Shown here: positions 7,779 through 21,872 of the stretch, one piece after another | Layout of the letters: each line of letters opens with the position of its first letter | Numbering within the stretch: position 1 is the first letter of the stretch | Origin: Emcibacter sp. | Lineage (GTDB): Bacteria > Pseudomonadota > Alphaproteobacteria > Sphingomonadales > Emcibacteraceae | Direction: 5' to 3' | Assembly (NCBI GenBank): GCA_021774875.1 | Contig: JAJFIP010000047.1 | Span: forward strand, 1-43,913 | Length of the DNA stretch: 43,913 bases | Position numbers and translations under genes: made by a program | Notes under the pieces: generated by a model | Database searches by the model: none | Told to the model about the DNA's origin: nothing | What the model saw: only the letters and a program-made list of their open reading frames with translations

Positions 7779-8980
7779 CCAAAAATACCTATCGTTCAGG
7801 CCCTGACAATGATGGCAGATACGGCGATTTTGGCGGCAGATTCGTCTCCGAAACCCTGATGCCGCTTATTCTTGATCTGGAAAAGGCTTACGTTGCATCC
7901 AAAGATGACCCGGCCTTTAAAGCTGAGTTTGACAACCTGCTGGCGGAATATGTGGGCCGCCCGAGCCCGCTATATTTTGCCGAGCGCTTAACAGAGCATC
8001 TGAATGGGGCCAAAATCTATTTCAAGCGCGAAGAGCTGAACCATACCGGCGCCCATAAAATAAATAATTGTATCGGTCAGATACTGCTTGCCCGCCGCAT
8101 GGGAAAGAGCCGTATTATTGCCGAAACCGGAGCCGGGCAACACGGCGTAGCTACTGCCACGGTCTGTGCGCGATTCGGCATGAAATGTGTGGTCTATATG
8201 GGTGAAAAAGACATTGAACGGCAAAAACCCAATGTCTTCCGCATGAAATTGCTGGGTGCCGAGGTGGTGCCAGTTACCTGTGGGTCAGAGAGCCTTAAAG
8301 ATGCCATGAATGAAGCCATGCGTGACTGGGTTGCCAATGTGGAGGATACTTTCTATATCATCGGCACCGCCGCCGGACCTCACCCCTACCCGGAACTGGT
8401 GCGCGATTTCCAATGTGTGATCGGCCATGAGACCCGCGAACAGATACTCGAACGAGAAGGTCGCCTGCCAGACAGTCTGGTGGCCTGTGTTGGCGGCGGG
8501 TCAAATGCCATCGGTCTTTTCCATCCATTTCTGGATGATGACATTGATATGTACGGTGTGGAAGCGGCAGGATACGGCATTGATACCGATAAACATGCCG
8601 CATCACTCACCGGTGGCAAGCCCGGCGTATTACACGGCAACAGGACTTATCTGCTCATGGACGACGACGGACAGATTGAGGAAGCCCATTCCATTTCCGC
8701 TGGCCTCGATTATCCGGGCATCGGGCCGGAGCATAGCTGGCTCCATGAAACGGGCCGGGTAAAATATGTACCGATCACCGACAGCCAGGCCCTTGAAGCC
8801 TTTCAGCTCTGCACCGAATATGAAGGCATTATCCCCGCCCTGGAAAGCGCCCATGCCATCGCCTATGTCATAGAGCTTGCGCCGACCCTGCCCAAAGATC
8901 ATATCATGGTCATGAATCTGAGCGGTCGGGGGGACAAGGATATTTTCACAGTGGCGACAGCCCTTGGTGCAGAGATTTAA
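7775..8980 (+). CDS. trpB: Tryptophan synthase beta chain
   Basis: Joins indole and serine to make tryptophan with pyridoxal phosphate. The 401 residues match the family. The PLP lysine lies in the signature [15 protein letters not shown], near residue 90, and the PLP phosphate is held by the glycine-rich [12 protein letters not shown]. The activating [10 protein letters not shown] and C-terminal [10 protein letters not shown] segments are intact. The start overlaps trpF by four bases, and trpA starts two bases after its stop, so the two subunits are made together as an alpha2beta2 complex. Confidence 0.98.
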
Positions 8981-16700: not shown

Positions 16701-17182
16701 AGGACCGCATCCCGCGCCCGACTTAAATGTTCAAGTGTCGTTCTCTCATCCATAACCTGAAAATGGGGTGCAATCCCGGCTTCCAGAGGAAAGCGCCCAA
16801 GCAGTGATTGGCAGAAAGAATGAATGGTCAGAATTTTCAGACCGCCGGGGACTTCAAGCACACGGGCAAAAAGCTTCCGGGCGCATTCCTGTTGTTCTTC
16901 GGTGGGAAATTCCCCGGTGAGACTCTGTATTTCCGCACATAAATATTGCTGGTCGCAGACCACCCATTTCCCAAGCCTGTCATTAATCCGGTTAGCCATT
17001 TCCGCCGCCGCCGCCTTGGTAAATGTCAGGCATAAAATCCGTTCAGGCCGGGTACCACTCAACAGAACCCGCAACACCCGATTGGTGAGTACAAATGTCT
17101 TGCCCGTACCCGCTGATGCTGCCACCCAGGCAGATGCCCCCGGATCAGAGGCTAGGGCTTGTTCAGTTGTTGGTGCCGTCAT
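13772..17182 (-). CDS. addA: Double-strand break repair helicase-nuclease AddA
   Basis: The 1136-residue large subunit of AddAB, which resects broken DNA ends for RecA-dependent repair. It is a UvrD-type helicase: Walker A AASAGTGKTFVLTNRVL near residue 25, LTFTKAAAAEMANRI, Walker B HILIDEAQDTNPEQW, VGDVKQSIYSFQRADP, RIMTVHGAKGLQAPIV and YVAMTRAEDRLYI. A RecB-type nuclease domain near the C-terminus carries ILIIDYKTNRPPP. All motifs are intact. The ATG overlaps the stop of the downstream addB fragment by four bases (ATGA), so translation of addA is expected to depend on ribosomes finishing addB. That matters because addB has an in-frame stop. Confidence 0.96.
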   Translation of the reverse strand: MTAPTTEQALASDPGASAWVAASAGTGKTFVLTNRVLRVLLSGTRPERILCLTFTKAAAAEMANRINDRLGKWVVCDQQYLCAEIQSLTGEFPTEEQQECARKLFARVLEVPGGLKILTIHSFCQSLLGRFPLEAGIAPHFQVMDERTTLEHLSRARDAVLAEADIHINPALASALDHISRKVTENTFADLIRELTGQRSGLEQLMHRFKSPKLVVSAMRKMLGLKTSDNRDRIIEAACEEKNVDSEGLRLAVEALLGGSPANQKTGEKMAHWLAAPEKRSQNYDEYKLAYLTKGGDIRKKLMPDKIAASCPDGIEAMTHEAVRLQAVEEKLKILSLLENSAAMLTIGAAMLEAFRDSKKRHAVMDYDDLILKVNGLIGMAGIAEWILFKLDGGIDHILIDEAQDTNPEQWQVVKALAGEFFVGHGRSAEIRTIFAVGDVKQSIYSFQRADPKEFVDNRLFFQKKSAHVDHNFHNVSLALSFRSTAAVLNVVDRVFESPESRKALSFSDEEIIHRPSRTGEAGLVELWPTEKAVEVPEPDDWQPPIIQQPSHSPEMKLAIRIADRISGWLDSGEILVSKGRPILPGDIMILVRRRTIFDDYMIRALKARKIAVAGQDKMELSKQIAVMDLLAMANFVLLPGDDLTLAVVLKSPFIGFSEQDLYDLAYARGGSLWSSLLSRQSERPIFQKAHDFLVSCMNFADTAPPFEFYNNLLTTLGGREKLISRLGEEANDPIDEFLQLAMGYEQNNISALQGFARWIESGDVQIKRDMEQGLQQVRIMTVHGAKGLQAPIVILPDTCKEPTKGSRLLWAGPESNKLLFWPGNKEFELGPCANGREDINLIRDQEYLRLLYVAMTRAEDRLYITGWEGKRDRSENCWYDLVRTALENIDDVVEGGDDYSLRLTCPQEKEIAEKPEQPIQRESEAQLPAWAKISPMPEPSPVQPLSPSRPVEDEPAVLSPLQSGKLKDQDQQRFHRGRLIHRLLEILPELPENKRQDVARNFLHQSAYELGATDIDQIIGQINSILTDVEFSQVFSPTSRAEVSIVGLAGTTPVSGQVDRLVVLDREILIIDYKTNRPPPENVDDVSRLYVRQMAAYRAVLSDIYPDKTIKCMLLWTDIARLMELPDGLLEQVKF

Positions 17183-17433
17183 GACGTCTCCTCCGCCTTG
17201 GTCACATCGCCGAGATCATTGCCCTGCCATTCTTTGGTTCGGGCCAGAAGATCATATTCGCCGTAGCCCAGATTATCTGGTCGTGGATTATTCAGATATG
17301 GCGTATCCGGCAGATCAAAGACTGTCACCAGCCTTATCAAGCCATCATAAGCCGACGTTATCACCGCTTCCACATCCATCCTGGTTCGGGAAGTGGCATT
17401 AAAACCGGTAATCTTCGACACATCCTGCCCACA
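17179..17433 (-). pseudogene. addB: C-terminal 84 codons of addB, cut off by an in-frame stop
   Basis: This segment is in exactly the same frame as the upstream addB reading frame, directly after its TAA at 17434-17436. The residues fit the AddB C-terminus of Alphaproteobacteria as I know it: a stretch ending VFDLPDTPYLNNPRP and then YDLLARTKEWQ. Its TGA overlaps the addA ATG by four bases, the coupling expected for an intact addB-addA pair. A GTG at 17419-17421 could start an 80-residue piece, but no good ribosome binding site is seen, so independent expression is doubtful. Most simply it is the separated tail of addB, through mutation, sequence error or readthrough. Confidence 0.8.
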
Positions 17434-20175
17434 TTATAGCTGCCAATAGGACAGGTCACTGACCGGGCCAGCATCGAGCCCGACAAAGTTACCGCTTGCG
17501 GCCATCATGCCTTCCAGTGGCAGTTGTGGGGCATATCCGGCATGAAGCGCACGGGCAGATGGGCTTGCGCCAGTTTTATAGTCAATGATGCTGTAGCTGC
17601 CGTCATTTAAACGGTCAATACGGTCGGCCTTGGCAGTCAGGGTAAAAGCTCCGCCGGGCAGATCAAATACCTGAGTGGCTTTGATTTCCGTTGCCACTGT
17701 TTTTGAGCTCACGCGGCGTTTTTCTTCTTCTTCCACAAACCATTCAGCCACATGAATGAAGCGTGGCCACCAGAAGGCCCGCACTGTTGGCCGATCGAGA
17801 TATGCTTCAAATTTCTTCCGGCCTGTTTTGATTAGCTCCTCAGCCGCAGCGGGGGGCAGATGATCAGAATATTTGCCCATAAATTCATCCAGCGCATCAT
17901 GAATGATCGTGCCTTTATCCGCCGCACCGGGATCGGCATCCAGCGCATCGAGAGTCTTGAGATTCAGGATATAGGCCGCATAAATACTATAGGGATCCTG
18001 CATCCATTTCTGAATTCGGGTCACCGACAGCTTGCGGGGCCGGACCGATACGGGTGGTGATGGCTTCGGCGGTCTAATCTTCTGGGTCTCGGCAGGCTGA
18101 TCCAGTGCGCGGTACCAGTCGAGCCACTGGATCATATCCGTGGCCTGTGCAATCTCCGGGGCGATGGCGTCCATGCGGCTTAACCAGCGGGATTTTACCG
18201 TCGGGGTTCCTTCAATCTTTTCTGATCGGGTAAGAACCACCTGAGCTGCCGATGCGGCCTGAACAAAATCATGGGCGCTCAGGCCGATTTTCCGTTCCAG
18301 TGATGGCAGGCAGAAATCCTTCCGCATGGGACGGCTCATCCACGGGTCAGGCACCGGGTCAGGCGGCCAGCTTCCCTCATTCAGGGATGCCAATATTACA
18401 AGATCGGCCTGCTGAAGACGGGCTTCCAGCGGTGACCAGATATTGAGCCGGGGATGCAGGCCATATTTGGGTCGAACGGTGATGCTGGCCATGAAAACTT
18501 CCAGCAAGGCCGGATAACTATCTGATTTGAGTAGGGGCAGTTTCGGGGCTGCAAGATGTAAATCTTCAATCAATTTGGCCGCCGCCTCACCCGCATCACC
18601 CTGCCATAACCGCTCCGGTCCGGTCCGATCATCAGATGCGCAGAGGCTTTCCGCCATTCGCACATGGCTGATCAGCAAGTCTTCAAAGGAGGTCTGTGGC
18701 TGCCCCATGACCTTTTCGAACGGTGTGATTAGATCGCTGAGCCCTTGCCACCAGTCTTTCAGGGTGTTTTCCCCGGAAGCTGTGTTAATAGCCCGACTAA
18801 GTCCCTGGCAGCCCGCGCCCGGACGCGGCCCGCGCAGAATTTTTTCTTCCAAAATCCGTGCCATTTTGCGAAAGCTTCCCACGTCTTGCCCCCTGGCGGC
18901 AAGCGGATGCTTCAATACAGACAATAATGCCACTGGTGCCAGCCCCTCGCCGACCATCTGCGCGGTTAACCTCAGGAACACTCCGGGCGGGCTGTTTGAT
19001 AACGGGGTTCCAGCACTGTCATCAACATTCAGGCCCCAGCGTTCCAGCTCACCCGCCACTCTACGGGCCAGCTGTCGGTCCTGGGTAACCAATGCAGCAG
19101 TCTTGCCCTCTGTCTCCAGCACTTCACGTAGCATGAGCGCAATCATTCCGGCCTCTTCGCGGGGTCCGGGCGCCTCCAGCCGGATGAAATTGCTGCTGGC
19201 TTGTTCAAGGTCCAGATCAAGACTACGCCAGCAATCAGTTGTTTCCGCAGGGCGCATCACTTCCCGCAGCAGATGATCCCGTGTTGACGGCTCTGCCCCT
19301 GTTGCATTCCAGCTTTTTACCTGATCCCGACCTGCACCGATAGCCGCCAGCAGATTTTTCATGGTCGCCTGCGGGTGAGTATCATCCAGAAGTTGCCAGC
19401 TTGTCTCGTCCATGGCAAGATCCAGTCCGGGCAATACGACCATGCCCTTTGGCAGGCGGGAAATGACTGAAAGCAATTTTGCTGTAGCTGGAATAGAGCC
19501 AGTTGATCCGGCGGCAATTATCGGATGTCTGGGCGGGTTTTCAAGCCATTTCTCCCGCAAGCCGCCCAGAAGAATATTGCGCCGTGCCGCCACATCGGAA
19601 TATCCGGTGGCCGCCAGAATATCCGGCCAATGTTCAGTCAGTATTTTCAGAAAATCCAGTGTCTGCTGCCAATGAGCCGCATATTCCTCAGGGACAATCT
19701 TTTCCAGATCCTTGAAATCCAGCTGCTCGGTCTGTACATGATCCAGAAACTGACCCAAAGAGTGAGCAAGCAAGGCACATTGGGCAGATTCAGGTGGCTC
19801 CTCCCGACGCCTGCCATACCAGCCGGATATTATTTCCATCAACAGCATTTGCCGCATATGGGGTGGAATAGGCGGGGATAATTCCATATCCCAGGTCGCT
19901 TGAGGCAGATTTCCCGACAAAAGAAGATCATCCTCATCCACATCACCAATCGGCTCTATCCGTGGCAACAAAAGGGACTTGCCCCCCACTTCACTGAGAA
20001 AAGCATCCCGCAACGCACGCACGGCCCGCCGGTTGGGTAACAGAATAAGCACATCACTTAAATATAGGGGATCATCACCAAACCGGGCCCGGATACCCTG
20101 TACCAGTCCCGCTACAAATGATGTATGGGGGGGAATCGTATAAAGTTCCGGTGCTTTTTTCAGTCGCCTTGGCAT
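17434..20175 (-). CDS. addB: Double-strand break repair protein AddB, shortened by an in-frame TAA
   Basis: The second AddAB subunit, an inactivated-helicase plus RecB-like nuclease protein. The 913-residue reading frame has LILLPNRRAVRALRDAF in the N-terminal part, a nucleotide-binding-like region without a full Walker A, GPREEAGMIALMLREVL, and LASLNEGSWPPDPVPDPWMSR. The nuclease core DPGAADKGTIIHDALDEF and SIIDYKTG lies just before the end. It stops at SYWQL with TAA, while 84 more codons of AddB-like sequence continue in the same frame; together they give about 998 residues, the usual size. The start ATG 20175 (PRRLKK) is preferred over the longer frame from 20223. It overlaps the end of the murU part by 16 bases. 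Confidence 0.88.
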   Translation of the reverse strand: MPRRLKKAPELYTIPPHTSFVAGLVQGIRARFGDDPLYLSDVLILLPNRRAVRALRDAFLSEVGGKSLLLPRIEPIGDVDEDDLLLSGNLPQATWDMELSPPIPPHMRQMLLMEIISGWYGRRREEPPESAQCALLAHSLGQFLDHVQTEQLDFKDLEKIVPEEYAAHWQQTLDFLKILTEHWPDILAATGYSDVAARRNILLGGLREKWLENPPRHPIIAAGSTGSIPATAKLLSVISRLPKGMVVLPGLDLAMDETSWQLLDDTHPQATMKNLLAAIGAGRDQVKSWNATGAEPSTRDHLLREVMRPAETTDCWRSLDLDLEQASSNFIRLEAPGPREEAGMIALMLREVLETEGKTAALVTQDRQLARRVAGELERWGLNVDDSAGTPLSNSPPGVFLRLTAQMVGEGLAPVALLSVLKHPLAARGQDVGSFRKMARILEEKILRGPRPGAGCQGLSRAINTASGENTLKDWWQGLSDLITPFEKVMGQPQTSFEDLLISHVRMAESLCASDDRTGPERLWQGDAGEAAAKLIEDLHLAAPKLPLLKSDSYPALLEVFMASITVRPKYGLHPRLNIWSPLEARLQQADLVILASLNEGSWPPDPVPDPWMSRPMRKDFCLPSLERKIGLSAHDFVQAASAAQVVLTRSEKIEGTPTVKSRWLSRMDAIAPEIAQATDMIQWLDWYRALDQPAETQKIRPPKPSPPVSVRPRKLSVTRIQKWMQDPYSIYAAYILNLKTLDALDADPGAADKGTIIHDALDEFMGKYSDHLPPAAAEELIKTGRKKFEAYLDRPTVRAFWWPRFIHVAEWFVEEEEKRRVSSKTVATEIKATQVFDLPGGAFTLTAKADRIDRLNDGSYSIIDYKTGASPSARALHAGYAPQLPLEGMMAASGNFVGLDAGPVSDLSYWQL

Positions 20176-21872
20176 ATTTTTTCCACCTTTTCCCGGGCAT
20201 CCGGCGTACCCACATGAAACCATTCGCCGTCATGAATGATCCCTGATAACCGCCCCCTTTTCTCAGCCTGATCAAATTGTCGGCGCAGTGAAAAGACATC
20301 TTCTGTCGTATCTGTAAAACAATCAGCTTTCATGATCAGGATGCCGCCGTAGACATAATCGGCTTGTCTGTCACTGCCACGGGCAGTCAGGCGTCCGTTA
20401 TCATCCCGGTGATAGTCCCCGGCTGCTGAATAACCAAACGCCTTGTCTCGGGGCACCAGCAGCATCAATATATCCATCTTGTCCGCCTGCCAGAAAGATT
20501 GCATCCCATGTAGCATCTGACGTGAACCATCCCGCCAGATCATGTCACTATTAAGAAGCAGGAAAGGTTCATTGCCCAGATATTTCAATGCCTTTTTCAC
20601 TCCGCCGCCGCTGTCCAGAAGCTGTTCGCGTTCGTCTGACAAAGTAAGTGTCAGACGGTGATCATAATATTGGCTGGCAAATTGTTCCACCTGTTCTGCC
20701 AGATAATGGGTATTAATGACCACATCACGCACCCCGGCACAGCAAAGACCATCCAGAGAATAAGAGATCAGTTCTTTTCCCGCGACGGTGATCAATGGTT
20801 TGGGACAATGATCGGACAGGGGCCGCATACGTTTGCCAAGTCCCGCTGCAAGTATCATGGCTTTTTGTGGCATGAAGACCGTGGGCAGGAAAGGTTGCGT
20901 GCGTATTTCAGGTGAAATATGAGCATCCATCCACTGCCTGATGGTCGCCAAAGCCGGATGTTGCAGATTTCGGTTCAACAAAGACCATACTCTGGGGATT
21001 TTATCAAGATATGTGGCCTTGCCGTCCCGCAGGCACAGCCGGGTAAAAATACCGATGATCTTGGCATTTCGCTGGACACCAAGGATAGCATAATCACGGC
21101 GGAATTTATCCTCCTCCGCCCCGGTTGTCTTGATATAGCTGGTGAGCATTTCCTGTTCCAGTGCGGGCGACACATCGCGTCTGGCATCCTGAAGTAGAGA
21201 GACAAGATCATAGGCTTTATGACCAATAGTTGCGTCCTGAAAATCCAGAAGACCGAGCCGCGCAAGGCCATCCTGCTCTGACCGGAGCATCATATTTTCC
21301 GCATGGTAGTCCCTTAATGTCAGACAATTAATGTCATTGGTTACCCATGATAATATCTCCTGCCACAGGCTCAGGAAAACTTCCCTGTCCTTATCCGCCA
21401 AAGGTTTTCCGCTTAACGCAGGCAGATACCAGTCAACGAACAGGCCCAGTTCTTCAAGCAGTAATTCCGCATCATAGCGAGGAATATCTGTTGGCGGGAC
21501 GGCATCCTGCAGATAAACAAGACCGTCTATAGCCAGCTGGTAAAGCATATTTTCCCGTGTTGGATCATCTTCTATCACCCGCGCGAACAGATCGTCCCCC
21601 AAATCTTCCAACAGCAAAAATCCATTGTCAATGTCACTGGCCATCACAAAGGGGGCGGCAAGCCCAATCGCTTGCAGATGGTGTGCCACGGCGACAAAAG
21701 GACGAACATCCTCAAACAGCGGCGGAGCATCCATTAATATGGCACTCTCTTGCCCCCGCTTCAGGCGTTCATATCGACGGAAAGAAGCATCATCAGCCAG
21801 CGGGCTTCTCACTGCTTCCCCCCAGCCATGTTGTTTGAGAAATTCTATACTAAGACGCGTACGATCATTCAT
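20160..21872 (-). CDS. Fused N-acetylmuramate/N-acetylglucosamine kinase (AmgK) and N-acetylmuramate-1-phosphate uridylyltransferase (MurU)
   Basis: One continuous 570-codon frame. Residues 1 to about 330 are an aminoglycoside-phosphotransferase-like sugar kinase with the substrate loop DDASFRRY, the catalytic RDYHAEN (187-193) and the metal motif LLDFQDA. Residues 334-570 are a sugar nucleotidyltransferase with LAAGLGKRMRPLSDHCPKPL, the metal-binding LLNSDMIW and a C-terminal WFHVGTPD. In the cell-wall recycling pathway AmgK phosphorylates MurNAc at C1 and MurU converts it to UDP-MurNAc, bypassing fosfomycin-sensitive MurA. Most Alphaproteobacteria keep these as two adjacent genes; here no stop separates them. 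An internal ATG (20871-20873) lies at the junction without a clear ribosome binding site. The gene overlaps tsaE by 8 bases and addB by 16. Confidence 0.9.
   Translation of the reverse strand: MNDRTRLSIEFLKQHGWGEAVRSPLADDASFRRYERLKRGQESAILMDAPPLFEDVRPFVAVAHHLQAIGLAAPFVMASDIDNGFLLLEDLGDDLFARVIEDDPTRENMLYQLAIDGLVYLQDAVPPTDIPRYDAELLLEELGLFVDWYLPALSGKPLADKDREVFLSLWQEILSWVTNDINCLTLRDYHAENMMLRSEQDGLARLGLLDFQDATIGHKAYDLVSLLQDARRDVSPALEQEMLTSYIKTTGAEEDKFRRDYAILGVQRNAKIIGIFTRLCLRDGKATYLDKIPRVWSLLNRNLQHPALATIRQWMDAHISPEIRTQPFLPTVFMPQKAMILAAGLGKRMRPLSDHCPKPLITVAGKELISYSLDGLCCAGVRDVVINTHYLAEQVEQFASQYYDHRLTLTLSDEREQLLDSGGGVKKALKYLGNEPFLLLNSDMIWRDGSRQMLHGMQSFWQADKMDILMLLVPRDKAFGYSAAGDYHRDDNGRLTARGSDRQADYVYGGILIMKADCFTDTTEDVFSLRRQFDQAEKRGRLSGIIHDGEWFHVGTPDAREKVEKICQGD

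Follow-up and report, generated by a model that had tools for sequence, protein, structure and literature searches.

The only addB copy found by whole-genome search in an uncultured Emcibacter-like bacterium was interrupted by an in-frame TAA. On balance, we take this stop to be a recent nonsense mutation, private to the lineage, which would remove the last 84 residues of AddB and damage its nuclease. A truncating mutation, one of three options offered by an earlier sequence-only reading of this DNA, was favoured over a sequence error. The most likely cause is an ordinary mutation that truncates the gene, or else a flaw in the assembly, rather than any new type of biology. The window analysed (43,913 nucleotides) was an entire contig (G000:C340) of a 3.9 Mb draft genome in 398 contigs. 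The gene order on its minus strand was tsaE, fused amgK-murU, addB, addA and trxA (Table 1).

Table 1. Features of the addB-addA region, in positions of the window.
Feature	Position	Strand	Basis
Truncated addB CDS	17437..20223	-	TIGR02786, 973 bits
Part of the PD-(D/E)XK nuclease domain that precedes the stop	17437..18030	-	Pfam PF12705, residues 732-929
Private in-frame TAA stop	17434..17436	-	Not found in any of the 26 aligned genus/family AddBs
Post-stop AddB C-terminus, 84 codons and original TGA (17179-17181)	17179..17433	-	Alignment with relatives
Shine-Dalgarno-like GGAGGAG, 5 nt upstream of the addA ATG	17188..17194	-	Sequence reading
addA, intact, 1136 aa	13772..17182	-	TIGR02784, 1221.5 bits; helicase and nuclease motifs present

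Around the stop, the minus strand read TAT TGG CAG CTA TAA TGT GGG. Past the TAA, exactly 84 further codons (17433-17182) could be read in frame before a TGA, which shared an ATGA overlap with the addA start codon. The interruption, the continuing frame and the overlap were all as the sequence-only reading had described them. Its description of addB as split held for the stop itself; the gene was, rather, truncated near its end and did not form two obvious genes. Counted from the first ATG (20223), the truncated protein comprised 929 aa; counted from MPRRLK (codon 17, 20175), the likely start, it comprised approximately 913 aa. When read through, the frame spanned 1014 positions from the first ATG and 998 from MPRRLK, the latter being a normal AddB length and the size anticipated earlier. 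Inclusion of the tail raised the score against TIGR02786 (addB_alphas, curated cut-off 486.5) from 973 to 1012 bits, and the tail aligned end to end with AddB of 13 congeners and the wider family. Judged by these matches, the 84-codon tail is a genuine coding AddB C-terminus and no chance ORF, in agreement with the initial proposal.

The stop is, by sequence comparison, private to one genome. At this position, the 13 congeners all encoded Lys and the remaining family members Lys, Ser or His; none of the 26 other genus or family AddB proteins covering the site had a stop there. The C-terminal tail was kept in all relatives covering that region and contained family-invariant residues. The idea that close relatives might naturally end AddB at this point, raised in the sequence-only reading, was ruled out by the alignment. 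AddB itself was detected in 125 of 125 good-quality genomes in an order-wide sample. Genome searches gave apparent stops inside addB of several relatives, which in the aligned relatives fell at query positions 12-18, before the true start. The exception was a distant relative (L063), whose own terminal stop was at position 1004. In one family member (G028:C141:1224-4192), the addB match consisted of two overlapping pieces in different frames, which by its sequence is a frameshift, either real or an assembly error.

The allele resembled the AddB of alphaproteobacterial AddAB (TIGR02786; B. subtilis AddB fold) in its full-length match, the addB-addA order, the ATGA overlap and the combination of a helicase-like N-terminus with a PD-(D/E)XK nuclease. 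It differed in ending 84 codons early. The truncated protein retained the helicase-like, Chi-scanning half, and the nuclease motif residues (H775, D867, D881, K883 and Q900, with D881-Y-K883) were all located before the stop. For a congener with an intact AddB, the AlphaFold model of this protein (mean pLDDT 82.6) had its best fold matches in AddB chains from B. subtilis AddAB structures (3U44/3U4Q/4CEJ), whereas a phmmer search against PDB sequences gave no match for AddB. In this model, the stop would fall directly after the strand 902-910. The truncation is predicted to remove the strand 917-922, the long final helix 932-950 and the conserved YDHLARxKEW segment, that is, the complete AddB C-terminus located beyond the TAA. 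The nuclease domain is probably unstable or inactive without this end. In the AddAB resection model, the 5' strand is degraded by the AddB nuclease (PMC4824097), and this is the activity expected to suffer.

A comparison can be drawn with RecC, the AddB counterpart in RecBCD, which has an inactivated nuclease-like domain (PMC1185551). Both would be Chi-recognising subunits with an inactive nuclease domain, a state we infer for the truncated AddB. In contrast, RecC lost the catalytic residues and kept the fold, while the truncated AddB keeps the residues and loses the end of the fold. Loss of an Fe-S cluster was also considered. In B. subtilis AddB, C-terminal cysteines belong to an Fe-S cluster. 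This cluster matters for structural integrity (PMC4824097). Its loss through the truncation was ruled out, since cysteines of the B. subtilis type were absent from the tail of the AddBs compared here.

Residues private to this lineage were more frequent in the tail (11/84) than in the body of the protein (60/914; p = 0.029), as were changes at family-invariant sites (2/17 vs 2/269; p = 0.019). Private N/S, with p = 0.09, did not reach significance. Just past the stop, two invariant residues were changed, G to C directly after it and A to S, and the family-invariant His of YDHLAR was replaced by Leu. The tail of a stop-free congener (G006) was likewise somewhat relaxed. These sequence differences, together with the clustering of private conserved-site changes at the stop, weakly suggest that the tail is under mildly relaxed constraint, a modest signal carried by three to four key residues. 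As far as it goes, it tips the balance slightly from a lone base error towards a real mutation. Pairwise dN/dS in the tail was approximately 0.15, which indicates that the stop arose recently in comparison with the species split. Neither the AddB body nor AddA evolved faster than in congeners, and this conservation of the body points either to a recent event or to a short protein that still functions.

Under the favoured reading, a recent private nonsense mutation would have created the TAA inside the sole addB copy. Translation would end at this presumably strong terminator and the last 84 residues would not be made. The short AddB would keep its Chi-scanning region and its nuclease catalytic residues and lack the last nuclease strand, the closing helix and YDHLARxKEW; the AddB nuclease, which resects the 5' strand after Chi, would probably be unstable or inactive. 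AddA would still be produced from its own ribosome-binding site, and break repair would then rely on a crippled AddAB together with the RecFOR/RecJ route. Such an allele fits the known pattern of bacterial pseudogenes and truncated alleles caused by nonsense codons, having a private in-frame stop, an otherwise intact ORF and a recognisable downstream frame. Nothing distinctive separates it from them, save that a DNA repair operon is affected. If real and fixed, the mutation would provide a naturally occurring alphaproteobacterial AddB that lacks the end of its nuclease domain, usable to ask whether break repair outside the laboratory needs the AddB nuclease. Otherwise, it would serve as a warning on single-codon interruptions in draft genomes; in either case it is ordinary.

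A miscalled base or bases at the stop, or mixed strains in the 398-contig draft, would mean that addB is intact in the living population. We regard this as less likely than a real mutation, while giving it more weight than the alternatives considered below. The draft was fragmented, and among the 38 tRNA genes found in the genome none was for His, Asn or Ile, showing that it is incomplete despite an estimated completeness of 99%. Moreover, the densest cluster of private conserved-site changes in the whole protein lay at the stop, with four such changes, the stop included, packed into 8 codons, a possible local consensus error. A single-codon interruption in another gene also fits this explanation. 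Against it, the remainder of addB and all of addA contained no frameshift or additional stop. Deviations at congener-invariant sites were as numerous in the AddB body and AddA as in congeners, and this lack of a general excess indicates that the contig is not error-ridden. The H-to-L change, furthermore, is 67 codons away from the stop.

The other interrupted gene was found in a scan of 1.1 Mb of this genome (28%, 880 closed ORFs), which was based on codon bias and covered nonsense interruptions only, so that frameshifts were undetected and short tails could be missed. The two interruptions were the only clear in-frame ones in this part of the genome, a rarity that also speaks against an artefact. 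The second affected a short-chain dehydrogenase (SDR) gene (L164, G000:C380:7284-8039) with a private TAA at 7884-7886. Its 9 congener orthologues were intact, and the nearest congener had Lys at the position of the stop. As in addB, residues after the stop deviated, for example invariant L213, which was changed to S. Two interruptions in 880 ORFs are compatible either with a small number of pseudogenes formed by nonsense codons or with sporadic errors in the consensus.

Alternatively, the stop may be real and the shortened AddB still functional, with a tail that is dispensable in this lineage and drifts while the body remains under selection. This is less probable again than an artefact. It would account for the mild relaxation of the tail next to a body conserved at the usual rate, and for the location of every catalytic motif residue before the stop; the short protein was also still recognised by the NCBIfam and Pfam models. 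However, every relative checked has kept the tail with its family-invariant residues. In the predicted structure, the tail supplies one strand of the nuclease as well as the final long helix, and the fold alignment with B. subtilis AddB extends to model residue 976.

Readthrough of the UAA by a suppressor tRNA or a context signal, yielding some full-length AddB, was the third option of the sequence-only reading and is very improbable. The tail was largely coding-like, as its dN/dS indicates, and the SDR gene provided a second in-frame TAA where the nearest congener has Lys. Against this, none of the 38 tRNAs found carried a UUA anticodon (0/38), though three tRNA families were missing from the draft. 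RNA downstream of the stop folded no better than shuffled sequences (z = -0.99), and the stop was limited to this genome and not conserved in relatives. The relaxed tail and its changed invariant residues argue against readthrough as well. In E. coli, UAA terminates strongly when the next base is U. A wider form of the idea, in which some in-frame UAAs (at least those in addB and the SDR gene, where the nearest congeners have Lys) are read as sense with a low yield of full-length protein, is just as improbable. A changed genetic code, dismissed from the outset, was ruled out: UAA was the commonest stop, ending 417 of the 880 closed ORFs, and two interruptions in 880 ORFs are at odds with such a change.

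The proposal that the stop would affect both subunits through translational coupling was not supported in that form. AddA was intact and had no lineage-specific excess of changes; loss of constraint was not seen, the 98 private residues among 1136 being similar to congeners G013 and G004. Since addA has its own strong Shine-Dalgarno-like GGAGGAG, its translation need not fail despite the early stop in addB, though uncoupling or polarity could lower it. In-frame ATG and GTG codons that might allow a restart occurred in the tail, none of them with a well-placed Shine-Dalgarno sequence by eye. The stop was situated inside a perfect TATAAT string (17433-17438, minus strand), probably by chance; a new promoter at this string was ruled out, as no sigma-70-like pair with a matching -35 box was found.

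RecF, RecO and RecJ were found in this genome, while a search of it for Ku gave no match. Caulobacter without AddAB is culturable but does not process breaks (PMC5443536), so loss of AddAB would be tolerable. Upstream of addB, an AmgK-like kinase and a MurU-like nucleotidyltransferase formed a single fused ORF of 570 aa (20160-21872, minus strand), with TsaE directly upstream. The same AmgK-MurU fusion was seen in congeners and related family members.
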